A DNA stretch of 64,000 nucleotides from Erodium maritimum (lineage: Eukaryota; Streptophyta; Magnoliopsida; Geraniales; Geraniaceae), in assembly GCA_963921825.1 (NCBI GenBank), contig OY997590.1:55046012-55110011 (forward strand), read 5' to 3'. Positions 4,777-54,631 of this stretch are shown here, piece after piece (position 1 is the first letter of the stretch; every line of letters starts with the position of its first letter). The position numbers and the translations under genes were made by a program. The notes beneath the pieces are model-generated. The model made no database searches, had not been told where the DNA came from, and saw only the letters and a list, made by a program, of their open reading frames with translations.

Positions 4777-4785
4777 AGAATATGA

Positions 4786-7046
4786 GTGTTGAGGACGAGT
4801 GTTGAGGACCATCGATCGTCGTTGCTCGTTGGTGTCGATTCGCTCCGACTGACTGATTGGGCGTCAGAGTGCGATTTGGTCAGACGAAGAGGTGTTGTTC
4901 GCCGGCGGAGACATGGTTGTCGGCCAGACTGTTCTGGGATCGCCTCCTTCAGGGTCGCAAGCAGTCTTCAAGCCAGCGGTTTTGTCTGGTTCTTCTCTCT
5001 CCCATTTCAGTTTTGATTGCTGGAGTTCATAGTTGTGCAGAGGACTCATACAATCCAAAAAGGGTCAATTATATGGTGATCCAGTATATGGTGTTATCTG
5101 CATAACAAGTCACGGCGAAAAGGGAGAAAAACAGAAGGGTGGATGTTGACCCTGCCGAGGAAGGACCCAGAGGAAAGGATCCGTCTAGGGAAGGTGCTCG
5201 CCGGACGGGGAGAGTTGCTGCTCCGGGTTCCCTTTCCGATCACAAGATTTTTGTTTATAATCTACTGGATGGGACGACAACTGAAGGTCTGAAAGTGACT
5301 TTTGGCACGGTTGCGGATGTTACTCATATTCACATTCCAACAAATCCAAATCGGATAGATAAATTCTTCGGTTTTGTCTCCTTTCGGATTTGGACTGATC
5401 TTGAACAGGTGGTGAGAAAGGTTAATGGATCCATGTTGGGCTCCCACAAGCTTTTTGTTGCTCAAGCTTGAGATCAAAGCCTTGCCATGGATTTACGAGA
5501 CTCCATCAACAAAAACAGGGAGGAGCGTGCTCGGGGTGGAAGGAAGCAACTAGTTTTGCAGGTTAACAATGCTCGGGCCTCAGAAGTTGATGCAGGGTGG
5601 TTGGGGGTGCTTCGAGAGAACATATTGCCAGCTGATCTGCAAGATGAGTTTGTTCGACAGGGAGAGACTTCCGTTAAGATTACGGCATTGGGGAACAGAG
5701 TCGTCTTGATCCTTTGCTTGGACAAATCGATAGAAGAGCGAATGGTTCTCACAAGATGGGCCTGGCTTTCTCAATGGGTTGTCATGGGTCTTGACAAGGA
5801 GGCTCTACTTAGTAACGGAGGTGTGTTCAATTGGGTTAATTTTGTCGGGGTTCCATACCAAGGGCGGAGTTGTGCGAATCTAGAGTCCCTGGCTGAGAGT
5901 TTGGGTACGATAGTCATGGTTCTTCCAGATTCGTTACATGGACTAAGTTTTGCTGAGTCTTTGGTATTGATCCATATGGAGCCTTGCCTAACTTTGCAGA
6001 TTATGGAGGTGGAATTAGGGGACTCGGTTGTCTCGGTATTGCCTTTGGTCGTTGAAGCTGCCTCTGTGCCTAATTTGTTTGTTGCTGAAGGGACTCGGTG
6101 GGGTGAGGGTGACGTCTCGAGGAGTGGGACAAAATATTATGACGACTCCGATAAGGATAATTGATCTGATTCTCACTTCAGGGAGCCTGTTGATATGGTG
6201 TCGGCGACGCTTTCTGTACCAAGCGATTTTATGAAGACAGAATACACGTTTTCTAGCCCGCAAGTCTAAGGCAGGGAGATTGAGAGCGTGACACCTTCTC
6301 CCACGTACATTGGGGGAGTAGGGATGGACTCAGTACAGGTACATACAAACATGATTGTGCCTGACACGAACTCTCCAGCAGGGACATGTGATTCGGAAAG
6401 GACAGTGTCGAGCAATTTCCTTTTCCGCAAGAAGAAGCGCACGCTTAAGGGTAAGGAACTCTGCAGTAATTCAGGTACCTTATCGGATCAGACTTTCGCG
6501 GTTGATGCATACGGGCCCGGGCCTACCATAGATTTGAGCAAACAACAGTTAGCAACCAAAGCTTGGGCTTATTGTAGCAAAATGGGCTTCAAATCCAAGA
6601 GTACTGCCGAACAGTTCAGGAAGGAACTTGATTTGTTATACGCAGAATTGCGTCCCCCTAGTCCGCAGTGTGATATTTTTGACTCGGAATATACTCCGGA
6701 TAACCCACGAATGTGCAAGGAGGTGGGCTGATCTTTGATGTGGTGAGGTCTGTGGCGGGGCGGAACTATGTGCTGATCTTTGTCTTGTTTCTTCTTAGTT
6801 TTCTTTGGTTCGGTGTAGCATGAGTCCTTTGGTTCCAAGTAGGTTTGGTTGAGTTCTCTAGGTCGGTGGTTATGCTTTTCGATAATTTGTTTGTTTCGGT
6901 TCGTGTTTTTAGCTTGTATTATAGTTGGATGGTATATCCACCTTTGATACTGTCTATTGTAGTTCGTGGTCTTAGTCTGCCCTCGTGCAAAGTGCCTATA
7001 TCTCATTTTGAGAATAAGGCTTATAAAACTTCTCTGATAAAAAAAA
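4786..7046 (+). mobile_element. LINE with ORF1 only (RRM-type, half-LINE)
   Basis: A non-LTR retrotransposon insertion bounded by the direct repeat AGAATATGA at 4777-4785 and 7047-7055, with a 3' A-tract (7039-7047) after CTCTGAT. The body holds a 5' leader (4786-5138), an ORF1 with an RRM domain (5139-6731) and about 310 bp of 3' UTR ending in the A-tract. No endonuclease or reverse transcriptase follows, although both ends look intact. RRM-containing ORF1 proteins are known from the plant BNR-type L1 lineage. Loss of ORF2 by internal deletion before or after insertion, or a line that spreads with ORF1 alone, would both give this structure. It would depend on another LINE for reverse transcriptase. 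Confidence 0.72.
5139..6731 (+). pseudogene. LINE ORF1 protein with RRM domain
   Basis: Starts MDVDPAEEGPRG. An RNA-recognition motif spans about residues 33-110: the RNP2-like strand reads KIFVYNL and the RNP1-like strand reads KFFGFVSF. One frame is used throughout. It is interrupted by TGA at 5469-5471, and it is open again at 5487-6164 (middle domain with WVNFVGVPYQGR and an acidic end, YYDDSDKDN). It is closed across 6165-6287 and open to a stop at 6729-6731. The C-terminal piece has a Lys/Arg stretch (RKKKRTLKGK). ORF1 proteins of plant LINEs bind the element RNA and form particles with it. At least two disabling changes make this copy inactive. It is read as LINE ORF1 rather than a host RRM retrocopy because of the element-like leader, tail and target duplication. 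Confidence 0.65.
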
Positions 7047-7055
7047 AGAATATGA

Positions 7056-16880: not shown

Positions 16881-18567
16881 TGTTAGTCTTAGTGCCCGTA
16901 GCTCAATCATAAATGTCCAAATGTATATATCATCGTTAGCAATAAAATTAAAGCGGCTTTATATTACTTATGTGTTGGAGTAATATATCGATGTGTGCTC
17001 TGATCTATGCCCACCATGCGAATAGAACCATAGATCGAGATAGATCACACTCGATGGGTCCCTAGTCAACAAAGCTTCACTAGAAGCGACTAGTATGAAA
17101 GATGGCTCTTTATGGCTTACGTTCTGTTAGTCATTGGAATGAGATTCCGGAGTCTGATCATAGATATCATGTGGGACATGATATTGGACGACCCGCCCTG
17201 AATATGTGCCATAGATTAAGTCATGAACATATTCAGTGTTGTAGCTTGTCATGTATCCTTAGACCAAGGAGTCTTTGTGATCGCTATGTAGTCAACAACT
17301 GAGTTTGACCTGAGCCTAACGTTGTTCGTAACAGGGCTTCCATAACGGCCAGGATTGGCTTGGGGACGGGCTACATGAGTGACACGAAAGGCGGCTAAGG
17401 GATTTATCCCTCATACTGAGGTATGGGAAAGATATCGGTTCTCGGCCGCTTGATCGAGAGTGACTGAAAGAATAGCATGGCCATGCACATGATACTGGGT
17501 ATCATATCTTCAGTCATCTCACATATCAAGGAACGGTGATTGAGAATAATAAGGATGACGGCTCTATGCCTTATCTCAATCAGGATATCGGAGATAAAAG
17601 GATAATGACAGGGACGACGGAAAGGTTAGAATCGACAGGGTCGATTCGTTATGTAGTGTCAGGCAATACTAAAGTCTCGTTAGTTGCCACTTAAATAGGA
17701 TCAAGTAAAATGGGATTTTACGTTGATCTATTGACATGCATAAACCTAAGGGTCACACCGGAGGATGAAACTCATTGACACATTTATGGAGAATGGCCAA
17801 AAGGGAGTTGTCTCGGGACATGACCAAAACTGGGTTTTGGATCATGTGCCCGTAAGTGAATAGGACTTTACGGATCGAGACAAGGCTTGGAGTCTTGGGA
17901 TTGATCGCGTCGGATAATGTTGGACATTTCCGGTATGGAAGGCATGGAGGCAATGAGCGAATCACGGGACCTCGTTGGAAATGGCCACGGGCCATGTTCC
18001 AAGAGGCCCATGAAAGGCCCATGCAACCAAGGCCCATGGAACTAATTAATCAAGTCTTGATTAATTAGTACTAAGTAAGCAAGACAAGGATTAAGGTGTT
18101 GGTGATTCACCACCTAACCCAATCTTGTCTTGCCATACTTTGTCCTATTTACACCTTACTTGACACCATACTTGTCCCATGCCTTTAGTTGGACAAGTAT
18201 GGGTTTTGTTATGTTTAAGTCATCTTTTTTCAACATAACAAAGACAAGACAAGAATAGGAAACACATTTTCTCTCCCTCTTCGATGGCCATTTCGGGTTT
18301 GGCTAGTTTCCACCTCCATTTTTGTGTTCTTGAGTCCTCAAATAGAAGAACTACGTGGCTTTGATTCCCATGTGGATACGTAGGCGTCTTGGAGACTCAA
18401 GCCAATCATTCGTTAACCGGTGTTCTTGTTTTGGTAAGAAATAGTGCTGAATTTTTCTCTTGTGAATCCATTCTTTGTTAGTTGTTTCATGGTTTAATCG
18501 TCTCTTGGTTTTCATTGATTTTCCGCTGCGAGTTGGTTCATCTCCAACCCTACCTCGAGACCCAACA
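16881..18567 (+). repeat. Copia copy 1, 5' LTR
   Basis: Runs TGTTAGTCTTAGTGCCCG to CGAGACCCAACA. The open frames of 60-94 codons inside it recur in all four LTRs of this family because the DNA is conserved; they show no protein motif. Confidence 0.93.
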
Positions 18568-21500
18568 GTGGTATCAGAGCCGTGCTACCTTTGGGATTCA
18601 CAAGACGGTGTTCAAAGTTTCGGTTTTGCTTGAAAGTTTCGTTTTTTGGCATGTTGTTTTGCTAAATTGTTTGATAACATGTTTTAAATTCTTGTTCATG
18701 GATTTAATGCATGTAAAATGAATTTTTGAAAATTATTTCAAATCTTGAAAGTTTGAAAAAATTTTGATTTTTCGGGTCTCGGGAGCGGGACTCTCGGGGA
18801 GCCGAAACCGGGACCAAACGGGGCTCCGTTGGACGGAGCTAGGCCAAGCATGACCATTGGATGGTTGATATGCCAAGGCTAAACCGTTTTGTTAGTTATG
18901 ACGAGTTTGGAACCGTCATGACGAACTCGAAGATCAAATGTTCAAAAGTTTCATTTTTGAACGGTTTCGATAAACCGAGCATCAAAAAATTTCGAAACTT
19001 GGCTATTAATTAAAACCGGAAAATCACATGATGTTTGATAACATGCTTGTTTGATAACATGATGTGTGATGTGATGTTGGCATGGTGTACATAATATCCC
19101 CGAGCTCAATTTAATTATTTATCGCTTTTCACGGCCTGCGAGCCGTTAGTGTTAGCGTGTAATTATTCTTTCAAGGTGTGGTCGTCGAACCACTTGTTTG
19201 TAATATTTATTTATTCCCGACCTGCGAGTCATGTATTAAATTGTAATATTTTACTCAAGATGGAGAAAGGGCGAAAAGGTCATTTGGTGGCTTTTCGGGT
19301 GTTGGCATCGGCTTGGAGTCGGTGGAGCTCAAGAAGCTAGTGGGAGTTAGTTTAGGGGGCTATTATGTGCATATTTATCGCTTTATGCTTGGTTTAGTTT
19401 ATGCATGATTAATTCTGTGTTTTAGAATTGCATGCTTAACTTTATTTACCGAGCATATCACCTCACATGCAAAGATAAAATTGGAATTTTAATCCTTGTG
19501 TGTGAGCCCTTAGAATCGTCATTACATTGGATGTAGTTGACGGGTTCGAAGGAAGAATTACATTGGATGTAATTTGAGGCATCATTGCATTTGGAATGTA
19601 GTTGATGTGCTCATCGCATCTAGGATGTGTCAAAGTTTTAAACACAACCGGACAAGTAAAAACGGGTCATGTCCGATACCTCCCAATTATCAACACCTTA
19701 CTACCTCCCCATCCTATGGGTGTCGTGCGCATTAGCGGAGCATCCATGGGAAAGCGGGGTAGTAGGTTTGGACGACATATGTGGGTGTCGTGCGCATTAG
19801 CGGAGCACCTACATAGTGACGAGCCATAGTTGAAAATTGGTGGACCCGACTACGATTCTCAGCCTGAGGTTGAGCTAGGGTAACAGATAGGGTAAGTCGT
19901 GTACATAAGTACATACCCTAGCCAAGAGTCACATTGGATGTGATTGGATGGAGTCCTACCTACATAGCTCGATTAAGTGGTGAGCATTAGTTCAGCTTAA
20001 TCGAGTGAATCAAGGATCTTGGTTTCAGATTCTAAAGGTTTAGAATTGATTGTTGGTGTTTAAGCTTGATCTTCATAAAATTTATTCAGTTTACTGATTG
20101 AATTTTATCTATTGTAGATCAAATGGCAAATTCAGCGAACATTAATAGTTTGTCATTAAAAACCATTCTTGACAGGGTCAAGCTAAATGGGACAAACTAT
20201 TTGGACTGGTACAGAATTTTGAGGATAGTACTCAAGTATGAACGCAAAGAATATGTCCTTGACAAAGCTGTCTCTAAGACCATATCAGAGTTACATGAAG
20301 TGTCATTAACTGCTGAGAAGAATATCTCAGGGATATGGGATCCAAGGATATTCTGATGGTCAACAAGGGAATTGGAAGTGGCAAGGGCTGGGCCCATGCG
20401 CACTTGGCAGGAAAGATGAGACACCTGAGAATGTCTGCTTTTACTGCCAACAGCCTGGTCATTGGAACCGGGATGACAGGAAGTTCACGGCTGATCTGAA
20501 GAAGGGCAGTGGGACTGCGCCTTTATCAAATAGCCTGGATGATCTGAAGAAGGGCAGTAGGACTGCGCCTTCATCAGGAAACCTGGATGATCTAAGGAAG
20601 GGCGGTGGGACCGTGTCTTCATTCAGTATTAACTCTATAGAGCTACATCTCTCTACTTCCAAAGATTCATGGGTATTAGATACCATGACTGAATCTCACA
20701 CATGCACTAATATATGGTGGCTGAAAGTAGGAGAGATTTGGAAAGCACGAAATGGACCTCAGAGTTGTGGCAACTGCTGTAGGATCCATGAGTCTTGCTT
20801 TGCCAAGAGGCCTTGTCTTAGTATTGTATAATGTATATTGCATAGCTACTTTTAGTAGGAATATTATATCTGTATCTGTGTTTGACAAGGAAGGATATAA
20901 TGTTAATATTGGAAATGGAGTTTTCAATGTTCTATGCAATGATATGTTTTATACCAGTACTGACATGGTTGGAGGATTGTACATATTAGATATGTGTAAC
21001 AATGCCTCAAGTTCTATATATTCCGTTAATACCAAGAGGTCTAAATCCAACGATTTAAACCTAACTCTGTTATGGTACTGTCATTTGGGTCGCATAAACA
21101 AGAAGCGCCTATCAGCACTTTAGAAGTGCGGGCTTTCAGGTTCATTCGAATTCCATTCGATCGATAGGTGCAAGGTTTGTTTGATGGGCAAAATGACTAA
21201 AGTGCCCTTTATCGATCTCGATGAAAGGGCGGGTGAATTATTGGGGCTGATACACTCGAATGTGTGTAGACCAATAAGTTCACTTGCCAAGAGGGGTTTT
21301 AGCTACTTTATCACATTTACTGATGATTACAGTAAATATGGTTATGTCTATTCGGTGAGACATAAGTCTGAAGCTTTTGATAAATTCAAAGAGTTTAAGA
21401 CTATAGTAGAAAACCAGCTCGACAAAGGTATTAAGGCACTTCGATTGGATCGAGGTGGAAAATACTTGATCACAGAGTTATTAGATCATCTAAAAGAGAA

Positions 21501-23644
21501 TGGGATCCTTTTGGAATGGACTCCTCCTAGGTCACTGTAGTTGAAAGGTGTAGCCAAACGGAGAAATCGGACATTGTTAGACAATGGTCTGTTCCATGAT
21601 TAGTTGGACTGATCTCCCAATCTCTTTTAGGGGTCTTGCTCTAGAGACGACCGCATTCATAGTGAATCGGGCTTCGACGAATGGTGTGGAAGGGACACCA
21701 TTTTAAAAATGGTACGGGATGATGCCCGCTTTGTCCTTCCTAAAGATTTGTGGTTGCGAGGCTTATGTGAAACATTTGGTTTCGACTAAGCTCGAACCAA
21801 GATCTGAGATATGCACCTTCGTGTGGTATCCCAAAGCAACAAGGGGATACTACTTCTACAATCCCAGTGAGAACATGGTGTTCGTCGCATGGGGCGGGGT
21901 CTTTATGGAAAAGAAGTTTTGTTTCCAAAGACGTCATTGGGAGGACTATGCATCTCGAAGAAATTCAGGATGGTACAGATCCGTCTAAACCAATTGGCAA
22001 CCCAGTAGAAAGGAGCCAGAGATTGTCGTAGAGTAAGAACCAATTCCTGTTACAATTCCGGAAGGTCCAAGGCAATTTGAAAGGATCAATCTTCCACCTC
22101 CAAGATATGGTATCTGGAGGTGACAATGAAGTCATGGTGGATCACGATGATCCAGCCACCTTTCAGGAAGTCGTGGATGGGCCCAACTCCGAGTTATGGC
22201 TGGGAGCCATGAGGGAGGAAATGCAATCCATGTCGGACAACCGAGTCTGGGAACCGGTTGATCCTATCAATGGGGTAATGACCATCGGATGCAAATGGAT
22301 CTTCAAGGTGAAGATGGACATGGACGGCAACCCTCTGACCTACAAAGCTCAACTGGTGGCGAAAGGTTATAGGCATGGATTGACTATGAGGAAACCTTCT
22401 CCCTAGTGGCTATGGTCAAAATCGATCCAAATTCTTCTTGACATAACTGCGTATCATAATTACGAGATATGGCAAGTGGATGTCAAAACCGCTTTCCTAA
22501 ATGGAAATTTGACTGAGTACATTTGTATGTCTCGGCCCAAAGGTTTTGACGATCCGAAGAATAAAGGAAAGATTTATAAGTTGTTGAAATCCATATATGG
22601 ATTGAAACGAACTTCTCGGAGTTGGATCCTTCGTTTTGATGAAGCTGTAATTGGATTTGGCTTAATCAAGAACGAGGATGAATCTTGCGTTTATAAGAAG
22701 GCTAGTGGGAGCAAGATTACCTTTCTGGTTCTCATTGAAAACGACATCCCAACCTTGCACGAGACTAAAGCTTGGTTGAGGAAGTGTTTTTCAATAAAGG
22801 ACTTAGGCGATGCTTCTTATATCTTAAGGATTAAGATATGTAGAGATCGCACCAAGAGGGTCTTGGATTTAAGTCAGGGAACCTATGTGAAAAAGGCATT
22901 GAGTAGGTTCTTAATGCTCGATTCAAAGAAAGGACTCTTACCCACTAGTCATGGTATTCATCTCAGCAAGACTCAGTGTCCTAAGACACCTGATGAGCTG
23001 AAAAGGATGATGAGAATCCTATGCGCCTGGGGGCAGGATCGATCATATATGCCATGACATGTATGAGACCAGACGTCTCGTACGCCTTATGTTGTACCAG
23101 TAGACATCATTCTAACCCGGGGGAAAGATGATGCTGAACTAGTCGTCGAAGGATGAGTAGACACTAGTTTTCCAAGACAAATCCAGATGACTTTAGAAGT
23201 CAATCAGGATATGTGTTTACGCTGAATGGCAGAGCTTTAGCTGGGAGAGCGTAAAGCAAGATATCATTGCCGAATCTACGACAGAGGCCAAGTACATGGA
23301 TGCTGCAGAGGCAGGTAAGGAGGCTATGTGGATTTGGAAATTCATGGCAGGGCTGGGTGTAATTAAAAACCCATCCAGCCCGGTGAATCCATCTTGCGAC
23401 AACACAAGGGCCATTGCGCAAGCTAAAAGCCTAGATCGTATAACAAATCCAAACATGTACTGCGGCATATCCACCTCATCAGATAAATACTGAACTGAGG
23501 TGAAGTAAAGATAACCGATATTGCAACAGATGATAACATAGCCAACCCTTTGACTAAGGCAGTGTCACTGCCTGAACATGTTAGACATGTAAAGTCGATT
23601 GGGACATATTGGAGTTTAGATTGGAACTAGGGCAAGTGGGAGAT
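18568..23644 (+). mobile_element. Copia copy 1 internal region
   Basis: An untranslated leader of about 1.5 kb comes first. Then follow gag from about 20123 (start MANSANINSL, with LNGTNYLDWY) to a zinc-knuckle area near 20.4 kb, a protease area near 20.66 kb, and integrase from about 20.9 to 22.0 kb. Reverse transcriptase runs from about 22.1 to 23.06 kb (VKTAFLNGNL, YGLKRTSRSW) and RNase H from about 23.2 to 23.5 kb (EAMWIWKFM). The gag section is shorter than usual for Copia. The region is not intact. A purine tract, AAGTGGGAGAT, at 23634-23644 precedes the 3' LTR. Confidence 0.85.
18569..18580 (+). promoter_or_regulatory. Primer-binding site (initiator Met tRNA)
   Basis: TGGTATCAGAGC lies one base after the 5' LTR, matching the 3' end of plant initiator tRNA-Met. 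Confidence 0.9.
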
Positions 23645-25331
23645 TGTTAGTCTTAGTGCCCGTAGCTCAATCATAAATGTCCAAATGTATATATCATCGT
23701 TAGCAATAAAATTAAAGCGGCTTTATATTACTTATGTGTTGGAGTAATATATCGATGTGTGCTCTGATCTATGCCCACCATGCGAATAGAACCATAGATC
23801 GAGATAGATCACACTCGATGGGTCCCTAGTCAACAAAGCTTCACTAGAAGCGACTAGTATGAAAGATGGCTCTTTATGGCTTACGTTCGGTTAGTCATTG
23901 GAATGAGATTCCGGAGTCTGATCATAGATATCATGTGGGACATGATATTGGACGACCCGCCCTGAATATGTGCCATAGATTAAGTCATGAACATATTCAG
24001 TGTTGTAGCTTGTCATGTATCCTTAGACCAAGGAGTCTTTGTGATCGCTATGTAGTCAACAACTGAGTTTGACCTGAGCCTAACGTTGTCCGTAACAGGG
24101 CTTCCATAACGGCCAGGATTGGCTTGGGGACGGGCTACATGAGTGACACGAAAGGCGGCTAAGGGATTTATCCCTCATACTGAGGTATGGGAAAGATATC
24201 GGTTCTCGGCCGCTTGATCGAGAGTGACTGAAAGAATAACATGGCCATGCACATGATACTGGGTATCATATCTTCAGTCATCTCACATATCAAGGAACGG
24301 TGATTGAGAATAATAAGGATGACGGCTCTATGCCTTATCTCAATCAGGATATCGGAGATAAAAGGATAATGACAGGGACGACGGAAAGGTTAGAATCGAC
24401 AGGGTCGATTCGTTATGTAGTGTCAGGCAATACTAAAGTCTCGTTAGTTGCCACTTAAATAGGATCAAGTAAAATGGGATTTTACGTTGATCTATTGACA
24501 TGCATAAACCTAAGGGTCACACCGGAGGATGAAACTCATTGACACATTTATGGAGAATGGCCAAAAGGGAGTTGTCTCGAGACATGACCAAAACTGGGTT
24601 TTGGATCATGTGCCCGTAAGTGAATAGGACTTTACGGATCGAGACAAGGCTTGGAGTCTTGGGATTGATCGCGTCGGATAATGTTGGACATTTCCGGTAT
24701 GGAAGGCATGGAGGCGATGAGCGAATCACGGGACCTCGTTGGAAATGGCCACGGGCCATGTTCCAAGAGGCCCATGAAAGGCCCATGCAACCAAGGCCCA
24801 TGGAACTAATTAATCAAGTCTTGATTAATTAGTACTAAGTAAGCAAGACAAGGATTAAGGTGTTGGTGATTCACCACCTAACCCAATCTTGTCTTGCCAT
24901 ACTTTGTCCTATTTACACCTTACTTGACACCATACTTGTCCCATGCCTTTAGTTGGACAAGTATGGGTTTTGTTATGTTTAAGTCATCTTTTTTCAACAT
25001 AACAAAGACAAGACAAGAATAGGAAACACATTTTCTCTCCCTCTTCGATGGCCATTTCGGGTTTGGCTAGTTTCCACCTCCATTTTTGTGTTCTTGAGTC
25101 CTCAAAGAGAAGAACTATGTGGCTTTGATTCCCATGTGGATACGTAGGCGTCTTGGAGACTCAAGCCAATCATTCGTTAACCGGTGTTCTTGTTTTGGTA
25201 AGAAATAGTGCTGAATTTTTCTCTTGTGAATCCATTCTTTGTTAGTTGTTTCATGGTTTAATCGTCTCTTGGTTTTCATTGATTTTCCGCTGCGAGTTGG
25301 TTCATCTCCAACCCTACCTCGAGACCCAACA
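23645..25331 (+). repeat. Copia copy 1, 3' LTR
   Basis: Same length and termini as the 5' LTR, preceded by the polypurine tract and followed by the GTCAA duplication. Confidence 0.93.
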
Positions 25332-28041: not shown

Positions 28042-28772
28042 CTGTTGTACCTATCGCCAAGGAACTTCCATCTCAAGACAGCATCGCCAATTCTCGGCCA
28101 TCGCTGGGTGACCGCGCCAAGGACCGGCCAACTCTAGGCGGCCTCGCCAACCATCGGCCAACCCTGGGCGGCCTCGCCAAAACTTGGCCAAGCTCGGGCG
28201 GTCTCTCCACTGACCAGCCAAATCCGGGAGGGCTCGCCAACTCCTCTCCAAGCATGGGCGGTGTGGCCAACATCCGACCAACTTTGGGCGACCTCACCAG
28301 CGACCGGCCCATCCTGGGCGGAGCGGCCAATTCTCGGCCAACTCTGGGCGGTGTGGCCAACAACCGGCCAATTTCGGGCGACCTCGCCAGCGACCGGCCC
28401 ATCCTGGGCGGAGCGGCCAAAATTCGGCCAACTCTGGGCGGAGTGGCCAAAAGCCAGCCAGCTTTGGGTGCCAGCTCATCGGCCTTGCGTGCATTACAAG
28501 CCAGCTCCTCTGGTCTGAGTAAGAGACGTTCTAGACTTCCTGCCACACCCTTTGAGGTTACGGGTCCTTCTAAACTCCCCTCTCCTACTCCGACTACCTG
28601 GAACCACGTGGAGAGAATTGGCTTTAAGGCTTTGGCTGCAGGTGGGGACGTGAGGGAACAATTTGAGAACATTGAGGCTGAACTTACTGGGTACTTGCAG
28701 CTTGAAGGCACAGCTTCTGGTGTTCCTAGTGGAGACAATCCCGTTGTCTCTACTAGCTCTCCCTCTTGTTAG
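28042..28772 (+). pseudogene. LINE ORF1, C-terminal part with decapeptide repeats
   Basis: Open from the insertion point to TAG at 28770-28772. It begins with a run of about 12 decapeptides of the form RPTLGGLANH (28096-28470), and a Ser/Pro-rich linker (SKLPSPTPTTW) follows. The end is acidic and Ser-rich (FENIEAELTGYLQ, VVSTSSPSC). No DUF4283 or zinc knuckle remains because the 5' end is lost. The frame is continuous with the Harbinger exon upstream, giving one open frame across the junction. The function of the repeats is unknown; they could be a disordered RNA-binding or assembly region. Confidence 0.6.
28096..28470 (+). repeat. 30-bp coding tandem repeat in LINE ORF1
   Basis: About 12 units, each encoding R/Q/S-P-x-x-G-G/D-x-A-x-x. 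Units vary but keep Pro and the Gly pair, and higher-order pairs recur: RPILGGAANSRPTLGGVANN resembles the later RPILGGAAKIRPTLGGVAKS. Confidence 0.9.
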
Positions 28773-28776
28773 CAGC

Positions 28777-31700
28777 ATGAAGCTTCTCTCTTGGAACGTG
28801 AGAGGAGCGAACTCTCCTCATAAAAGGAGAGACATTCGGAGAGTTATCCTTGCACACCGAGCTGAATTTGTCATGATGCAAGAGACTAAAATCTCTGATA
28901 TTACTGTCGTCTTTCTCTGGGAGTGTGGCCTATTCCAGGGATGTGATTTCTGACATATCCCCTCCGATGGTGCTGCTGGTGGCCTTTTTTCAGCTTGGAA
29001 GCTTTCCTCGTTCTCCATGGCTAGTTCTCGTCCGGTTGGTTCCGCTCTCTTTTGGTCGGGCACCCACATCAGTACAGGTCAACTTGTTTCATTTCTAAAT
29101 TTTTATGGCCCTTCTTTATCCTCTGCTCGTAGCACTCTTTGGGACCTGCTTATTGTTGATCGGTTTTCGTTTGGGGACATCCTCATAGCAGGAGGGGACT
29201 TTAATTTTGTCCTTAATGCTGATGAGAGACGTAACACTCAAACGTCTACATCAGATTGCTCTTTGTTTAGTGACTTTCTGCAGGCAATGGAGCTGGTTGA
29301 TCTTAATCTTGTGGGTGCTAATTATACCTGGTATGGAGGGGGATCAAAAGCGTCTCGTCTAGACCGCTTTGTGGTCTCGCCCTCGGCTCTGATCATGTTT
29401 GGCGACCTGGTCCAGTGAGCTCACCCACGCTCTCTATCTGATCATCGTCCGCTTACCTTGGAAGTTGCTTCGGTTGATTGGGGTCCCAAGCCTCTTCGGT
29501 TTCTCAATGCTTGGATCGATCACAAGCATTTCCGATCAGATGTGAAGGCTTTGTGGGATTCTTATGATTGTCAAGGTTCGGCTGGTTATTGTCTCTGGTT
29601 CAAACTCCGTTGCCTACGACGTGACTTGCATCGTTGGGGTTTTGAGGTGTTTGGCCGTACTGATCGAGATGTAGAAGCCCTTGAGGCGGAGATAGATTCT
29701 TTTCACTCGGCCCTGGATGATAGCCTTCTATCGGATGCTGAATGTGTGGCCCGTTCTCTATTGCGTGTGCGTCTCATACGCAAACAGAAGGTCCTTGCAC
29801 GAATTTGGAGCCAAAAGGCCCGTTTGAAGTGGCACAAGCAAGGTGACCTTTGCTCTCGGTTTTACCACAAGATTGCAAATGTTAGGGCCTCCAGAAACAA
29901 GATTGTGCAGGTCACGGTCGATTCGGTTTCATATACCGATCCCTCTGATATCAAGCGACTTGCAGCAGCGCACTTTGGCCTTCGCTTCTCCAAACCGGTG
30001 TCCAGGGTGCCCCTCCCCTCCCTTCCTTTTGCTAGGTTGTCAGCCGGCCAGATTTCTTTTCTTGAAGAGCCATTCTCGCTAGAAGAAGTTCGAGCAGCCC
30101 TCTCAGCTTGTGGTTCAGAGAAGGCACCGGGACCTGATGGTTTCTCTCTTTTATTCTACAAGGAATGTTGGGATGTGCTCAAGGATGACTTGTTGAGGTT
30201 CTTCTCGGACTTTTATGCTTCAGGGACCATTGGTAAGGGTCTAAACTCCACTTTCCTTACCTTGATCCCTAAGCATCAAAATGCAGCTAGCTTTCAAGGT
30301 TTTCGCCCAATCAGCCTTATTTCGGGTCCCTACAAGATCCTAGCTAAGGTCCTCTCCAACCGGCTTAGATAGGTTCTTGATGACATCATTGGTGACTCCC
30401 AATCGGGGTTTGTGGCAGGCAGGCAACTTGTAGATGGTGTCTTGATCGCCTCTGAGGTCATAGACTGGGTCTGGAGATCTGGTGAAGAGGTTGTTGTCCT
30501 CAAATTAGACTTCGAGAAGGCCTTTGACAAGGTACATTGGGATTATGTGGATGAGGTTATGAAGGCCATGGATTTTGGGCCGAAGTGGAGATCTTGGATG
30601 GCTTCCTGTTTTCGGGCTTTTGTGGCTGTGTTGGTGAATGGTTCTCCGAGCATGGACTTCCCTATCCTGAACGGTATTAGGCAGGGGTGCCCCCTTTCAC
30701 CCTTTATCTTCTTGTTAGCTGCTGAAGGTTTGCATCAGGTCCTTGACAAGGGAATAAGTTTGGGGAAATTCTCAGGCATTCAGCTTGGTCCTAGTGGTCC
30801 GGTTCTGTCCCATCTCCAGTTCGCAGATGAAACTCTGTTATTTGTGAAAGGGTCCCCTAAAGATCTCCTCCGTCTCAAGAGCACTTTACTCACTTTTCAG
30901 CTATGTTCAGGGCTCAAAATCAACTTTGAAAAGTCCACTGCCATACTCCTTAATGCAAGGACTTGCACACCAGACTCAGTCGCCTCCTCCCTGAGGTGTT
31001 TGGTTGGTTCTCTACCTTTCAAATACCTTGGTTTTAGCTTGGGCGCGAATCCTAGGCGCCGATCTTTTTGGGCTCCTGTCATCCAGAAGTTTAAGGACTC
31101 CCTTGCCTTATGGAAGACTAAGGACCTTTCTATGCCGGGAAGACTAGTGTTGATAAAGTCCACCTTGTTTGCTTTGCCTATTTTCTACATGTCCCTTTTC
31201 AGGGCACCGAAAGGAGTTATTCAGGATTTGGAGTCTTGGAGACGGCGGTTTTTGTGGCATAACAAGGCTCACTCTCGGGTTTTTTGCAAAGTTCGTTGGT
31301 CCACTATTTGCAAGCCCAAAAGTGAGGGCGGCCTAGGGATTAGAGGCTTGGAGAGAGTCAACCAAAGTCTGCTAGCTAAATGGTTCTGGAGATTTGCCAC
31401 TGAGAAGGATTCCTTGTGGAAACGGGTCCTTTGTGCAAAGTTCGGCTGGAACTTGTCTGAATGGGACTTGACTGCTCTAGATAAGCCAGGCTCCTCCTTC
31501 ATTTTTGGCCATATTATGGAACTTTCTGCCTCACCGACCTTCAGAGGTTTGTTTGGGGATCAGAGTTTGCATTGGTGTGTTGGGGAAGGTGACCGTATAC
31601 GTTTTTGGCAGGATATTTGGCTTGGCCCCTTAGCCTTTCGTTATCGCTTCCCAAGAATTTATAGTCTCTGTCTGGGTAAGTGGTCTCGTGTTGGGGAGTT

Positions 31701-32455
31701 ATGGAGAAATGCCTCTTGGTGCATTGTTTATCGCCGACCCTTTTATTTCTCTTATGAGCGAGAGGATTTAGCTTTGCTTATGGGTCTTCTAGCCTCAGTC
31801 ACCATTCGGCCAGGTTCCCCGGACTCGGTCTCTTGGTCTCATCACCGTTCGGGCTTCACTTCGGCCTCTGCTTTTCTTTTGCTAGATGACAGTGCTCTGT
31901 CTCCGGTTCCTTGAGGGGGATTTCTCTGGGTCAAGAATCTCCCCCCCCCCCCCCCCCAAGTACAGCTCTTTGGTCTGGTTACTGGCTCACAATGCAGTTC
32001 CAACCAAAACTTTCTTAGAGGAGCGAGGTATGCGTATATCCCTCAATGATATGTTCTGTTGCCTTTGTGCTACTGTTTTCGAGGATGCCTCCCATCTCTT
32101 CTTGCACTGTGTTTTTGCTTGGTCGCTTTGGTCCAAAGTCTATTCATGGTGGTCGATTATTTGGGTGGTGCCGGGTGATTGTTTGGCCTTGATCTCTGCT
32201 TGGCGAGGTTTGGGTAGAAGGCGCTGGTGGAAAATATGGGTCAAGGTTGGCTACCTTGTTCTTTGGCATATTTGGTTGCAGAGGAATTCTGGTGTTTTCA
32301 GGCGCCAGTCTGATTCGGTTGACATTGTCTTCAGTAAGCTCCAACATCACAGTTTCAGCATTTGCAGGATGTCTGGTGATATCTTGGAGGATGTCAGCTT
32401 GCCTCTTTGGCTGACTTCCCATCATCTTGTTTACATTTTCGTTGTTAGGAGTTAA
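28777..32455 (+). pseudogene. LINE ORF2: endonuclease, reverse transcriptase, zf-RVT
   Basis: Starts MKLLSWNVRGANSP. Apurinic-type endonuclease: MMQETKI, GGDFNFVL, RLDRFVVS and SDHRPL (28777-29460). Reverse transcriptase about 30060-30950: EKAPGPDGF, FRPISLI, LDFEKAFDKVHWDY, RQGCPLSPFIF and LQFADETLLF, where the usual catalytic FADD reads FADE. C-terminal zf-RVT region: WLLAHNAVPTKTFL...CCLC...EDASHLFLHC (31960-32120). In-frame stops lie at 28951, 29416, 30370 and 31912. A run of 17 C at 31941-31957 shifts the frame before the zf-RVT part. The protein makes the nick and copies the RNA at the target. This copy is dead. Confidence 0.9.
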
Positions 32456-32584
32456 TACTCCTCTTTATCTTACTTGGTTTTTCCTTTCTGTAGTAGGTTA
32501 TTTTGGGGTATTGCACCTCGTGCTTTGTAATATGTTATTACAACGCCATGAATAAAACCATCATTTATCAAAAAAAAACGTTCT

Positions 32585-46169: not shown

Positions 46170-47857
46170 TGTTGGGTCTCGAGGTAGGGTTGGAGATGAA
46201 CCAACTCGCAGCGGAAAATCAATGAAAACCAAGAGACAATTAAAACCATGAAACTACTAACAAAGAATGGATTAACAAGAGAAAAATTCAGCACTAGTTC
46301 TTACCAAAACAAGAACACCGGTTAACGAATGATTGGCTTGAGTCTCCAAGACGCCTACGTATCCACATGGGAATCAAAGCCACGTAGTTCTTCTCTTTGA
46401 GGACTCAAGAACACAAACATGGAGGTGGAAACTAGCCAAACCCGAAATGGCCATGGAAGAGGGAGAGAAAATGTGTTTCCTATTCTTGTCTTGTGTTTGT
46501 TATGTTGAAAAAAGATGACTTAAACATAACAAAACCCATACTTGTCCAACTAAAGGCATGGGACAAGTATGGTGTCAAGTAAGGTGTAAATAGGACAAAG
46601 TATGGCAAGACAAGATTGGGTTAGGTGGTGAATCACCAACACCTTAATCCTTGTCTTGCTTACTTAGTACTAATTAATCAAGACTTGATTAATTAGTTCC
46701 ATGGGCCTTGGTTGCATGGGCCTTTCATGGGTCTCTTGGAACATGGCCCGTGGCCATTTCCAACGAGGTCCCGTGATTCGCTCATCGCCTCCATGCCTTC
46801 CATACCGGAAATGTCCAACATTATCCGACGCGATCAATCCCAAGACTCCAAGCCTTGTCTCGATCCGTAAAGTCCTATTCACTTACGGGCACATGACCCA
46901 AAACCCAGTTTTGGTCCTGTCCCGAGACAACTCCCTTTTGGCCATTCTCCATAAATGTGTCAATGAGTTTCATCCTCCGGTGTGACCCTTAGGTTTATGC
47001 ATGTCAATAGATCAACGTAAAATCTCATTTTACTTGATCCTATTTAAGTGGCAACTAACGAGACTTTAGTATTGCCTGACACTACATAACGAATCGACCC
47101 TATCGATTCTAACCTTTCCGTCGTCCCTGTCATTATCCTTTTATCTCCGATATCCTGATTGAGATAAGGCATAGAGCCGTCATCCTTATTATTCTCAATC
47201 ACCGTTCCTTGATATGTGAGATGACTGAAGATATGATACCCAGTATCATGTGCATGGCCATGCTATTCTTCCAGTCACTCTCGATCAAGTGGCCGAGAAC
47301 CGATATCTTTCCCATACCTTAGTATGAGGGATAAATCCCTTAGCCGTCTTTCGTGTCACTCATGTAGCCCGTCCCCAAGCCAATCCTGGCCGTTATGGAA
47401 GCCCTGTTACGGACAACGTTAGGCTCAGGTCAAACTCAGTTGTTGACTACATAGCGATCACAAAGACTCCTTGGTCTAAGGATACATGACAAGCTACAAC
47501 ACTGAATATGTTCATGACTTAATCTATGGCACATATTCAGGGTGGGTCGTCCAATATCATGTCCCACATGATATCTATGATCAGACTCCGGAATCTCATT
47601 CCAATGACTAACAGAACGTAAGCCATAAAGAGCCATCTTTCATACTAGTCGCTTCTAGTGAAGCTTTGTTGACTAGGGACCCATCGAGTGTGATCTATCT
47701 CGATCTATGGTTCTATTCGCATGGTGGGCATAGATCAGAGCACACATCGATATATTACTCCAACACATAAGTAATATAAAGCCGCTTTAATTTTATTGCT
47801 AACGATGATATATACATTTGGACATTTAGGATTGAACTACGGGCACTAAGACTAACA
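46170..47857 (-). repeat. Copia copy 2, 3' LTR
   Basis: On the minus strand it starts TGTTAGTCTTAG and ends CCCAACA, next to the polypurine tract (AAGTGGGAGAT on the minus strand, 47858-47868). Confidence 0.94.
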
Positions 47858-50800
47858 ATCTCCCACTTGCCCTAGTTCCAATCTAAACTCCAATATGTCC
47901 CCATCGACTTTACATGTCTAACATGTTCAGGCAGTGACACTGTCTTAGTCAAAGGGTTGGCTATGTTATCATCTGTTGCAATATCGGTTATCTTCACTTC
48001 ACCTCAGTTCAGTATTTATCTGATGAGGTGGATACGCCGCAGTACATGTTTGGATTTGTTATGCGATCTAGGCTTTTAGCTTGCGCAATGGCCCTTGTGT
48101 TGTCGCAAAATGGATTCACCGGACTGGATGGGTTTTTAATTACACCCAGCCCTGCCATGAATTTCCAAATCCACATAGCCTCCTTAGCTGCCTCTGCAGC
48201 ATCCATGTACTTGGCCTCTGTCGTAGATTCGGCAATGGTATCTTGCTTTACGCTTTCCCAGCTAAAGCTCTACCATTCAGCGTAAACACATATCCTGATT
48301 GACTTCTAAAGTCATCTGGATTTGTCTTGGAAAACTAGCGTCTACTCATCCTTCGACGACTAGTTCAACATCATCTTTCCCCCGGGTTAGAATGATGTCT
48401 ACTGGTACAACATAAGGCTTACGAGACGTCTGGTCTCATACATGTCATGGCATATATGATCGATCCTGCCCCCAGGCGCATAGGATTCTCATCATCCTTT
48501 TCAGCTCATCAGGTGTCTTAGGACACTGAGTCTTGCTGAGATGAATGCCATGACTAGTGGGTAAGAGTCCTTTCTTTGAATCGAGCATTAAGAACCTACT
48601 CAATGCCTTGTTCACATAGGTTCCCTGACTTAAATCCAAGACCCTCTTGGTGCGATCTCTACATATCTTAATCCTTAAGATATAAGAAGCATCGCCTAAG
48701 TCCTTTATTGAAAAACACTTCCTCAACCAAGCTTTAGTCTCGTGCAAGGTTGGGATGTCGTTTTCAATGAGAACCAGAAAGGTAATATTTCTCCCACTAG
48801 CCTTCTTATAAACGCAAGATTCATCCTCGTTCTTGATTAAGCCAAATCCAATTACAGCTTCATCAAAACGAAGGATCCAACTCCGAGAAGTTCGTTTCAA
48901 TCCATAAATGGATTTCAACAACTTATAAATCTTTCCTTTATTCTTCGGATCGTCAAAACCTTTGGGCCGAGACATACAAACGTACTCAGTCAAATTTCCA
49001 TTTAGGAAAGCGGTTTTGACATCCACTTGCCATATCTCGTAATTATGATACGCAGTTATGTCAAGAAGAATTTGGATTGATTTTGACCATAGCCACTAAG
49101 GAGAAGGTTTCCTCATAGTCAATCCATTGGATCTGCCTATAACCTTTCGCCACCAGTTGAGCTTTGTAGGTCAAAGGGTTGCCGTCCATGTCCATCTTCA
49201 CCTTGAAGATCCATTTGCATCCTATGGTCCTCACACCATTGATGGGATCAACCGGTTCCCAGACTCGGTTGTCCGACATGGATTGCATTTCCTCCCTCAT
49301 GGCTCCCAGCCATAACTCGGAGTTGGGCCCATCCACGACTTCCTGAAAGGTGGCTGGATCATCGTGATCCACCATGACTTCATTGTCACCTCCGGATACC
49401 ATATCTTGGAGGTGGAAGATTGATCCTTTCAAATCGCCTTGGACCTTCCGGAATTGTAACAGGAATTGGTTCTTACTCTACGACAATCTCTGGCTCCTTT
49501 CTACAGGGTTGCTAATTGGTTTAGACAGATCTGTACCATCCTGAATTTCTTCGAGATGCACAGTCCTCCCAATGACGTCTTTGGAAACAAAACTTTTTTT
49601 CCATAAAGACCCCACCCCAAGCGACGAACACCATGTTCTCACTAGGATTGTAGAAATAGTATCCCCTTGTTGCTTTGGGATACCACACGAAGGTGCATAT
49701 CTCAGATCTTGGTTCGAGCTTAGTCGAAACCAAATGTTTCACATAAGCCTCGCAACCACAAATCTTTAGGAAGGACAAAGCGGGCATCATCCCGTACCAT
49801 TTTTAAAATGGTGTCCCTTCCACACCATTCGTCGAAGCCCGATTCACTATGAATGCGGTCGTCTCTAGAGCAAAACCCCTAAAAGAGATTGGGAGATCAG
49901 TCCAACTAATCATGGAACAGACCATTGTCTAACAATGTCCGATTTCTCCGTTTGGCTACACCTTTCAACTACAGTGACCTAGGAGGAGTCCATTCCAAAA
50001 GGATCCCATTCTCTTTTAGATGATCTAATAACTCTGTGGTCAAGTATTTTCCACCTCGATCCAATCGAAGTGCCTTAATACCTTTGTCGAGCTGGTTTTC
50101 TACTATAGTCTTAAACTCTTTGAATTTATCAAAAGCTTCAGACTTATGTCTCAGCGAATAGACATAACCATATTTACTGTAATCATCAGTAAATGTGATA
50201 AAGTAGCTAAAACCCCTCCTGGCAAGTGAACTTATTGGTCTACACACATTCGAGTGTATCAGCCCCAATAATTCACCCGCCCTTTCATCGCGATCGATAA
50301 AAGGGCACTTTAGTCATTTTGCCCATCAAACAAACCTTGCACCTATCGATCGAATGGAATTCGAATGAACCTGAAAGTCCGCACTTCTGAAGTGCTGATA
50401 GGTGCTTCTTGTTTATACGACATAAATGACAGTGCCATAACAGAGTTAGGTTTAAATCGTTGGATTTAGACCTCTTGGTATTAACAGAATATATAGAACT
50501 TGAGGCATTGTTACCCATATCTAATATGTACAATCCTCCAACCAAGTCAGTACTGGTATAAAACATATCATTGCATAGAACATTGAAAACTCCATTTCTA
50601 ATATTAACATTATATCCTTCCTTGTCAAACACGGATACAGATATAATATTCCTACTAAAAGTAGGTATGCAATATACATTATACAGTACTAAGACAAGGC
50701 CTCTTGGCAAAGCAAGACTCATGGATCCTACAGCAGTTGCCACAACTCTGAGGTCCACTTCGTGCTTTCCAAACCTCTCCTACTTTCAGCCACCATATAA

Positions 50801-52943
50801 AAGTGCATGTGTGAGATTCGGTCCTGGTATCTAATACCCATGAATCTTTGGAAGTAGAGAGATGTAGCTCTATAGAGTTAATACCGGATAAAGGCACGGT
50901 CCCACCGCCCTTCCTTAGATCATCCAGGTTTCCTGATGAAGGCGCAGTCCTACTATCCTTCTTCAGATCATCCAGGCTATTTGATGAAGGCGCAGTCCCA
51001 CTGCCCTTCTTCAGATCAGCCGTGAACTTCCTGTAATCCCGGTTCCAATGACCAGGCTATTGGCAGTAGAAGCAAACATTCTCAGGTGTCTCATCTTTCC
51101 TGCCAAGTGCGCATGGGCCCCGCCCTTGCCACTTCTAATTCCCTTGTTGACCATCAGAATATCCTTGGATCCCAGATCCCTGATATATTCTTCTCAGCAA
51201 TTAATGACACTTCATGTAACTCTGATATGGTCTTAGAGACAGCCTTGTCAAGGACATATTCTTTGCGTTCAGACTTGAGGACTATCCTCAAAATTCTGTA
51301 CCAGTCCAAATAGTTTGTCCCATTTAGCTTGACCCTGTCAAGAATGGTTTTTAATGACAAACTATTAATGTTCGCTGAATTTGCCATTTGATCTACAACA
51401 GATAAAATTCAATCACTAAACTGAATAAATTTTATGAAGATCAAGCTTAAACACCAACAATCGATTCTAAACCTTTAGAATCTGAAACCAAGATCCTTGA
51501 TTCACTCGATTAAGCTGAACTAATGCTCACCACTTAATCGAGCTATGTAGGTAGGACTCCATCCAATCACATCCAATGTGACTCTTGGCTAGGGTATGTA
51601 CTTATGTACACGACTTACCCTATCTGTTACCCTAGCTCAACCTCAGGCCGAGAATCGTAGTCGGGTCCACCAATTTTCAACTATGGCTCGTCACTATGTA
51701 GGTGCTCCGCTAATGCACACGACACCCACATATGTCGTCCAAACCTACTACCCCGCTTCCCCATGGATGCTCCGCTAATGCGCACGACAACCATAGGACG
51801 GGGAGGTAGTAAGGTGTTGATGATTGGGAGGTATCGGACATGACCCGCTTTTACTTGTCCAGTTGTGTTCAAAACTTTGGCACATCCTAGATGCGATGAA
51901 CACATCAACTACATTCCAAATGCAATGATGCCTCAAATTACATCCAATGTAATTCTTCCTTTGAACCCGTCAACTACATCCAATGCAATGACGGTTCTAA
52001 GGGTTCACACACAAGGATTAAAATTCCAATTTTATCTTTGCATGTGAGGTGATATGCTCGGTAAATAAAGTTAAGCATGCAATTCTAAAACACATAGAAT
52101 TAATCATGCATAAACTAAACCAAGCATAAAGCGATAAATGTGCACATAATAGCCCCCTAAACTAACTCCCACTAGCTTCTTGAGCTCCACCGACTCCAAG
52201 CTGATGCCAACACCCGAAAAGCCACCAAATGACCTTTTCGCCCTTTCTTCGTCTTGAGTAAAATATTACAATTTAATACACGACTCGCAGGTCGGGAATA
52301 AATAAATATTACAAACAAGTGGTTCGACGACCACACCTTGAAAGAATAATTACACGTTAACTCTAACGGCTCGCAGGCCGTGAAAAGCGATAAATAATTA
52401 AATTGAGCTCGGGGCTATTATGTACACCATGCCAACATCACATCACACATCGTGTTATCAAACAAGAATGTTATCAAACATCATGTGATTTTCCGGTTTT
52501 AATTAATAGCCAAGTTTCGAAATTTTTTGATGCTCGGTTTATCGAAACCGTTCAAAAATGAAACTTTTGAACATTTGATCTTCGAGTTCATCATGACGGT
52601 TCCAAACTCGTCATAACTAACAAAACGGTTTAGCCTTGGCATATCAACCATCCAATGGTCATGCTTGGCCTAGCTCCGTCCAACGGAGCCCCGTTCGGTC
52701 TCGGTTTCGGCTCCCCGAGAGTCCCGCTCCCGAGACCCGAAAAATCAAACTTTTTTCAAAATTTCCAGATTTGAAATAATTTTCAAAAATTCATTTTACA
52801 TGCATTAAATCCATAAACAAGAATTTAAAACATGTTATCAAACAATTTAGCAAAACAACATGCCAAAAACGAAACTTTCAAGCAAAACCGAAACTATGAA
52901 CACCGTCTTGTGAATCCCGAAGGTAGCACGGCTCTGATACCAC
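47858..52943 (-). mobile_element. Copia copy 2 internal region
   Basis: Reading right to left: leader, gag from about 51387 (MANSANINSL), zinc-knuckle and protease area about 51.1-50.7 kb, and integrase about 50.76-49.5 kb. Reverse transcriptase follows at about 49.4-48.4 kb (VKTAFLNGNL), then RNase H about 48.2-48.0 kb. The parts and lengths match copy 1. Not intact. Confidence 0.85.
52931..52942 (-). promoter_or_regulatory. Primer-binding site of Copia copy 2
   Basis: GCTCTGATACCA, the complement of TGGTATCAGAGC, lies one base from the 5' LTR. Confidence 0.9.
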
Positions 52944-54631
52944 TGTTGGGTCTCGAGGTAGGGTTGGAGATGAACCAACTCGCAGCGGAAAATCAATGAA
53001 AACCAAGAGACAATTAAAACCATGAAACTACTAACAAAGAATGGATTAATAAGAGAAAAATTCAGCACTAGTTCTTACCAAAACAAGAACACCGGTTAAC
53101 GAATGATTGGCTTGAGTCTCCAAGACGCCTACGTATCCACATGGGAATCAAAGCCACGTAGTTCTTCTCTTTGAGGACTCAAGAACACAAACATGGAGGT
53201 GGAAACTAGCCAAACCCGAAATGGCCATGGAAGAGGGAGAGAAAATGTGTTTCCTATTCTTGTCTTGTGTTTGTTATGTTGAAAAAAGATGACTTAAACA
53301 TAACAAAACCCATACTTGTCCAACTAAAGGCATGGGACAAGTATGGTGTCAAGTAAGGTGTAAATAGGACAAAGTATGGCAAGACAAGATTGGGTTAGGT
53401 GGTGAATCACCAACACCTTAATCCTTGTCTTGCTTACTTAGTACTAATTAATCAAGACTTGATTAATTAGTTCCATGGGCCTTGGTTGCATGGGCCTTTC
53501 ATGGGTCTCTTGGAACATGGCCCGTGGCCATTTCCAACGAGGTCCCGTGATTCGCTCATCGCCTCCATGCCTTCCATACCGGAAATGTCCAACATTATCC
53601 GACGCGATCAATCCCAAGACTCCAAGCCTTGTCTCGATCCGTAAAGTCCTATTCACTTACGGGCACATGACCCAAAACCCAGTTTTGGTCCTGTCCCGAG
53701 ACAACTCCCTTTTGGCCATTCTCCATAAATGTGTCAATGAGTTTCATCCTCCGGTGTGACCCTTAGGTTTATGCATGTCAATAGATCAACGTAAAATCTC
53801 ATTTTACTTGATCCTATTTAAGTGGCAACTAACGAGACTTTAGTATTGCCTGACACTACATAACGAATCGACCCTATCGATTCTAACCTTTCCGTCGTCC
53901 CTGTCATTATCCTTTTATCTCCGATATCCTGATTGAGATAAGGCATAGAGCCGTCATCCTTATTATTCTCAATCACCGTTCCTTGATATGTGAGATGACT
54001 GAAGATATGATACCCAGTATCATGTGCATGGCCATGCTATTCTTCCAGTCACTCTCGATCAAGTGGCCGAGAACCGATATCTTTCCCATACCTTAGTATG
54101 AGGGATAAATCCCTTAGCCGTCTTTCGTGTCACTCATGTAGCCCGTCCCCAAGCCAATCCTGGCCGTTATGGAAGCCCTGTTACGGACAACGTTAGGCTC
54201 AGGTCAAACTCAGTTGTTGACTACATAGCGATCACAAAGACTCCTTGGTCTAAGGATACATGACAAGCTACAACACTGAATATGTTCATGACTTAATCTA
54301 TGGCACATATTCAGGGTGGGTCGTCCAATATCATGTCCCACATGATATCTATGATCAGACTCCGGAATCTCATTCCAATGACTAACAGAACGTAAGCCAT
54401 AAAGAGCCATCTTTCATACTAGTCGCTTCTAGTGAAGCTTTGTTGACTAGGGACCCATCGAGTGTGATCTATCTCGATCTATGGTTCTATTCGCATGGTG
54501 GGCATAGATCAGAGCACACATCGATATATTACTCCAACACATAAGTAATATAAAGCCGCTTTAATTTTATTGCTAACGATGATATATACATTTGGACATT
54601 TAGGATTGAACTACGGGCACTAAGACTAACA
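52944..54631 (-). repeat. Copia copy 2, 5' LTR
   Basis: Same length and ends as the 3' LTR, with the GAAAA duplication just outside. Confidence 0.94.

Follow-up and report, generated by a model that had tools for sequence, protein, structure and literature searches.

The element at positions 4786-7046 of the window (the whole 64,000-nucleotide stretch of Erodium maritimum DNA analysed here) belongs to a multi-copy family of LINEs that contain ORF1 and no ORF2. The reading that we favour, and to which we give a probability of about 0.8, is that it represents a dead copy of a plant-L1-type ORF1-only family, whose members would borrow the ORF2 protein of a related two-ORF LINE by means of a common 3' tail.

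Anatomy of the window copy

The features of this copy, with their basis in brackets, are the following:

4777..4785 (+): target-site duplication, 5' copy, AGAATATGA (read from the sequence)
4786..5072 (+): 5' leader, probably shortened at its 5' end compared with other copies (leader lengths, start block)
5073..6731 (+): ORF1 frame of 552 codons plus stop, pseudogene copy (four premature stops)
5247..5453 (+): RRM_1 domain in ORF1 (Pfam PF00076, E 2e-9)
5670..5918 (+): DUF4283-like segment of ORF1 (E 0.013, below the Pfam cut-off)
6732..7038 (+): 3' UTR (sequence and genome matches)
6974..6993 (+): tail hairpin 1, its 3' arm altered in the window copy (alignment, pair counts)
7001..7013 (+): tail hairpin 2, TCTCA-TTT-TGAGA (alignment, pair counts)
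7021..7042 (+): conserved terminal motif TTATAAAACTTCTCTGATAAAA (27-nt pattern around the motif, genome-wide)
7039..7047 (+): A-tract, its final A common to the target duplication (sequence)
7047..7055 (+): target-site duplication, 3' copy, AGAATATGA (sequence, duplication scoring)

The leader, RRM-type ORF1, 3' UTR and A-tract described in an earlier note on this DNA are all seen in the sequence, and its statement that ORF2 is missing is confirmed, since only about 315 nt separate the end of ORF1 from the end of the element. The copy is dead, because its ORF1 frame carries four premature stops (5103 TAA, 5469 TGA, 6162 TGA and 6267 TAA); an alignment of the protein of another copy, L024, to this frame likewise shows two TGA and two TAA. 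L024 has an intact ORF1 of 547 aa, to which the window frame is 79% identical at the amino-acid level; in it the RRM_1 domain reaches E 1.1e-12 (Pfam) and the DUF4283-like segment E 3.8e-5, with 23.8 bits against a Pfam cut-off of 27.2.

Both ends of the element had been taken to be intact, which holds for the 3' end but not for the 5' end. The leader measures 287 nt, whereas it spans 337-597 nt in 17 other copies (L006, whose duplication is uncertain, and loci with weak duplications were left out). Furthermore, a start block, CCCTAGGAGAACGCG, which occurs with at most three differences near the 5' end of nine of 18 relatives and as a variant in two more, is absent from the window copy, which is therefore probably slightly 5'-truncated. 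Between the target duplication and the start block, the copies L002, L008, L011, L014, L016, L019, L024, L025 and L026 carry 12-60 nt that appear to be different in each copy, as if transcription had started in flanking DNA or filler had been added at the 5' end.

ORF1-only copies across the genome

The plant's own genome (763 Mb in 40 contigs) was searched with the element, with its 3' UTR alone, with a tail pattern and with the ORF1 protein of L024. In the element search, 40 of 364 candidates were scored, giving 53 matches; the sequences of the 30 best loci, the window copy included, were then retrieved. At every one of these loci the distance from the end of ORF1 to the tail end is 268-410 nt, and a comparison with the ORF2 of the window's other LINE found no similarity upstream in the same orientation. 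The question put in the earlier note, whether many copies share this ORF1-to-3'-UTR arrangement, is thus answered in the affirmative.

With the 3' UTR as sole query, 40 of 266 candidates were scored and 30 loci obtained, 13 of which had already come from the element search. Among the 17 new ones, ORF1 lies directly upstream in ten, six show none in the bases fetched, and one (L037) adjoins the end of an unrelated LINE. A 27-nt tail pattern, allowing up to two mismatches, occurs at 115 places in the genome, against none for its reversed control; 20 loci were fetched from the 100 places listed among these, 14 of them picked for variant tails. The end of ORF1 was found upstream in seven, only an inner part of ORF1 in one (L067), and none in 12. 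Across the 17 3'-UTR loci and the 20 tail loci, a piece of ORF2 (same query) stands upstream at only two, L037 (812 nt from the tail end) and L065 (975 nt from it), in both cases outside the homology of the element. Both were considered as possible two-ORF partners and rejected. At L037, a 3' UTR end 95% identical to the window's follows reverse transcriptase (RT) and RH pieces, but these are part of a different LINE, which has G and C tracts, and the match begins abruptly; at L065 the RH piece sits at the distance just given.

With the L024 protein, 79 of 11,718 candidates were scored, yielding 92 matches at 75 distinct loci. A known tail follows within 1 kb in at least 53 of them and at 1-3 kb in two, and none is listed for the other 20. 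For 14 divergent ORF1 relatives (52-66% amino-acid identity in their main matches) the downstream side was fetched: 11 reach the same tail without ORF2, two are interrupted, and one, L094, enters ORF2. Loci whose ORF1 is followed by a tail at no more than 1 kb, at least 53, outnumber those in which the end of ORF1 stands beside the start of ORF2, at least 12 with L094 included, although the queries behind the two counts differ. The sampling of the family starts from ORF1-only sequence and so favours that class. The 3'-UTR bodies of L081, L090, L064, L071 and L073 resemble that of the window copy; those of other subfamilies do not.

Two stretches on C7, 73679778-73680091 (-) and 73683220-73683533 (+), are each 94% identical to the window 3' UTR; they lie about 3.1 kb apart in opposite orientation and start at the same point of the element, and the pair is probably a local inverted duplication.

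The family spread by LINE-type insertion, with independent target duplications. In 15 of the 30 loci, duplications score 12-17, each above the maximum of its own control (20 shifted positions per locus, with maxima of 8-11, and 13 in two loci). The remaining 15 comprise three that lie slightly above the control maximum and 12 that do not, among them the window copy (9 against 10). The 9-bp duplication noted earlier in the window is thus found exactly at both ends, yet by its score it lies within chance in a wide search; it is made credible by that exact position together with the 15 loci that score 12-17. The strong duplications begin with A in 13 of 15 cases and are preceded by a pyrimidine in 13 of 15, their exact start being blurred by A's common to the tail. 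The intact copy L024 has a target duplication of 16 bp.

The ORF1 sequences carry traces of selection. Variants were classified in 29 of the 30 copies (L018 was left out for its coverage, as were variants present in exactly two copies). Singleton variants are 27% synonymous, against a neutral expectation of 25% under the same mutation spectrum, whereas variants common to at least three copies are 51% synonymous (Fisher p 3e-16); the contrast persists when C>T and G>A changes are removed (p 3e-9). Over 406 pairs the median dN/dS is 0.35 (range 0.21-1.63), with 0.69 in the eight closest pairs. Since singletons are near-neutral and shared variants constrained, copies decay freely after insertion, while their sources kept ORF1; the ORF1 protein therefore probably stayed functional while the ORF2 protein was supplied in trans. 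Some of the constraint seen in shared variants may be older than the loss of ORF2 and come from a two-ORF ancestor. In the closest pair, L004 and L022, ORF1 is 96.6% identical, which at plant substitution rates of 0.7-1.3 x 10^-8 per site per year would correspond to roughly 1-2.5 million years of divergence.

The two-ORF relative and the common tail

At L094, whose ORF1 has 52% amino-acid identity to that of L024 (the one two-ORF copy for which this value was measured), ORF1 runs straight into the endonuclease (EN) of ORF2. Used as a DNA query, the ORF1 end plus EN of this locus matches at least 14 other loci at 67-79%, at least 11 of which extend into the end of ORF1. The 3' end of such a partner was read from a copy on C8: 420 nt of ORF2 C-terminus, a stop and a 3' UTR of about 200 nt. 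This C-terminus is similar to the part of the window's other LINE that bears zf-RVT (33% amino-acid identity, E 2e-20), and the last 93 nt of the copy are 80.6% identical to the window tail (E 1e-17). When both C8 pieces were searched and their places compared, at least 13 pairs of ORF2 C-terminus followed by tail were obtained, and in at least five loci the ORF1 end plus EN, the ORF2 C-terminus and the tail stand in line:

C8:3424054-3428209: ORF1 end + EN, ORF2 C-terminus, tail
C7:30185504-30189757: ORF1 end + EN, ORF2 C-terminus, tail
C7:53337666-53341870: ORF1 end + EN, ORF2 C-terminus, tail
C9:57130150-57134124: ORF1 end + EN, ORF2 C-terminus, tail
C8:56762597-56766720: ORF1 end + EN, ORF2 C-terminus, tail

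Two further loci are of partner type without a listed tail. In this comparison of places, 25 of the 42 matches to the L094 query were left out, being short and directed to a different repeat at the end of the query; the partner is read from the parts named above, its RT core being expected in the intervening 2.4-2.6 kb or so. Downstream of the partner copies on C3, C9 and C1 (L095, L096 and L097), the expected LINE sequence was not found. A partner-type copy at C6:60495346-60496205 (+) passes from the ORF1 end and the beginning of ORF2 without interval to the C-terminus of ORF2 and the tail. By its arrangement it is a two-ORF LINE with an internal deletion, and no second pair of this kind occurs among the matches listed.

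The tails of the ORF1-only copies match the partner 3' UTR over its last 93 nt or so only, at 81-85%. The body of the partner 3' UTR does not match that of the window (z 0.3) and resembles only two of the 25 bodies tested, L083 (z 3.1) and L085 (z 4.4). Of the full-length partner with ORF2 and the same 3' UTR contemplated in the earlier note, a two-ORF relative was therefore found, but the 3' UTR is common only in this terminal part.

This tail is probably both conserved and structured. In an alignment of 23 chosen tails, that of the partner included, two hairpins form 81.1% of their possible pairs; slid out of register, they form 27-46%. Seven of the 13 hairpin pairs are changed on both sides (mean of shuffles 3.8, with 12 of 500 as high), and the covariation score is matched by 32 of 500 shuffles; slid by one column, six pairs and 11 cells are changed on both sides, against seven and nine in register. 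The support that pairing gives to the hairpins is thus moderate.

Regarding the source of the enzyme, no intact ORF2 of the partner group was found among the 150 matches listed per search; the longest open frames among the matches listed are of 462 aa near EN (59-70% identity) and 485 aa near the ORF2 C-terminus. A LINE at 51% EN identity has a frame of up to 824 aa with one stop, and LINEs at 34-41% EN identity have five stop-free frames of 1,219-1,249 aa. The related two-ORF LINE is the best candidate source of ORF2 protein; a helper outside this group, for instance a LINE with a long ORF2 frame, is possible. Whichever the donor, the family would very probably be fed by the ORF2 protein of some LINE through the common tail.

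The mechanism that we propose on these bases is as follows. Source copies would transcribe an RNA consisting of leader, a single RRM-bearing ORF1 and 3' UTR, and the ORF1 protein, judging by its RRM and by the selection on it, would probably bind its own RNA in cis. The related two-ORF LINE would supply in trans an ORF2 protein with endonuclease and reverse transcriptase, which would recognise the common tail of about 93 nt, with its two hairpins, the TTATAAAACTTCTCTGAT motif and the A's, and would make a new genomic copy of the RNA by target-primed reverse transcription. Selection on ORF1 in an element that borrows its ORF2 would suggest, in turn, that the ORF1 protein is needed in cis.

Origin of the family and known half-LINEs

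A more tentative proposal, which we would place somewhat short of even odds, is that the ORF1-only LINEs form an old and diversified lineage, with early loss of ORF2, a constrained ORF1 and many subfamilies (52-66% identity), in which half elements are more numerous than the two-ORF donor of their enzyme and may have survived it.

It is improbable, in our judgement, that each ORF1-only copy is a new derivative of a two-ORF LINE, produced by internal deletion or by removal of ORF2 from the RNA through splicing, so that the constraint would be that of the parent. The deleted LINE on C6 demonstrates that internal deletion does occur, and mammalian HAL1 arose several times (PMC5753468). However, no two-ORF parent with an ORF1 near the L001-L030 group was found among the matches listed, the measured two-ORF copy standing at 52% to L024, and the rarity of ORF2 pieces upstream of the 3'-UTR and tail loci (L037 and L065 only) also speaks against it.

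Slightly less probable still is that the copies are processed retrocopies of one or several domesticated host genes derived from a LINE ORF1, copied by LINE enzymes. The mammalian gene L1TD1 offers the model: it too has kept ORF1 without ORF2 (PMC4161310), but it is a host gene, whereas the present family is dispersed, with a LINE tail and target duplications. A constrained ORF1 as the only coding sequence, and many nearly complete copies bearing A-tract and target duplications, would agree with such an origin. Against it, the LINE tail is kept across the ORF1-only subfamilies and the two-ORF LINE, while a host mRNA needs none; the intact L024 is itself flanked by a target duplication; and the diverged subfamilies (11 loci) would require several source genes.

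Lastly, most LINE copies are truncated, but an ordinary truncated copy or a single private deletion of ORF2, the case that the earlier note had named as its own refutation, has hardly any probability left, as the same arrangement recurs at different sites in 30 of 30 loci.

The family here read as ORF1-only LINEs mobilised through a common tail works in the manner of mammalian HAL1, from which it is nevertheless distinct. It resides in a plant, its ORF1 carries RRM_1 and a DUF4283-like segment and does not derive from mammalian L1, and its 3' tail is common to a two-ORF LINE; to our knowledge, HAL1 has no such conserved tail and relies on poly(A). The likeness lies in a LINE-derived, multi-copy family that encodes the ORF1 protein only and has kept the coding capacity of ORF1 by selection (which here may partly precede the loss of ORF2), the ORF2 protein being thought to act in trans (PMC5753468, PMC3627910). 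Guinea pig HAL1 kept its coding capacity for some 29-44 Myr, which its authors read as ORF1p acting in cis and ORF2p in trans (PMC3627910). The comparison with HAL1 drawn in the earlier note is thus upheld for structure and for the probable mode of spread, the mobilisation in trans being what we infer.

Among plant elements, several share one or another of these traits. BNR is a two-ORF LINE family, unlike the present ORF1-only one. The two have in common an RRM in ORF1, RRM_1 in the case of L024, as far as the title of the paper on the BNR-type LINEs of Beta vulgaris indicates in reference lists (PMC5348765, PMC11603912). The Celine-type LINEs of poplar bear in ORF1 a DUF4283 domain that is described as conserved in the LINEs of a range of plants (PMC11288735); they are two-ORF LINEs, whereas here the DUF4283-like segment, whose match is below the Pfam cut-off, is accompanied by an RRM. 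Ohshima's review treats a lineage of plant L1 whose conserved 3' stem-loop also occurs in SINEs: Stringent-type L1 (ME1, monocot 1a) shares this 3' end, with compensatory changes, with non-autonomous SINEs of maize and sorghum (PMC3747384). A conserved 3' end common to a two-ORF LINE and its borrower is likewise found here; SINEs, however, code for nothing, whereas the present borrower codes for its own ORF1 protein.

The earlier note knew of no established plant equivalent, and no plant ORF1-only LINE family was found among the papers listed by the literature searches; as far as these papers tell, this plant type of half-LINE has not been described before. If so, half-LINEs would not be peculiar to mammals, and the family would offer a natural separation of ORF1 from ORF2 in plants, with a common tail through which its recognition by the reverse transcriptase of a plant L1 can be put to a direct test. 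For annotators it adds a class to be sought, since the non-autonomous classes named in a 2022 plant review (LARDs, TRIMs, SMARTs, MITEs, SNACs and MULEs, with SINEs as an order) include no LINE derivative (PMC9033089).

The genome appears to be LINE-rich, as zf-RVT gave 12,902 first-look candidates genome-wide. The window's other LINE, at about 28954-32575, comprises endonuclease, RT and zf-RVT pieces and has a different 3' end without the family tail. Positions 28073-28768 hold imperfect repeats with frames open on both strands, coding for repeated short peptides. Finally, a retrotransposon of about 8.5 kb is present in two copies of opposite orientation (16881-25331 and 46170-54631), 97.9% identical to each other and each with terminal repeats of 1.7 kb that are 99.6% and 99.9% identical within the copy.
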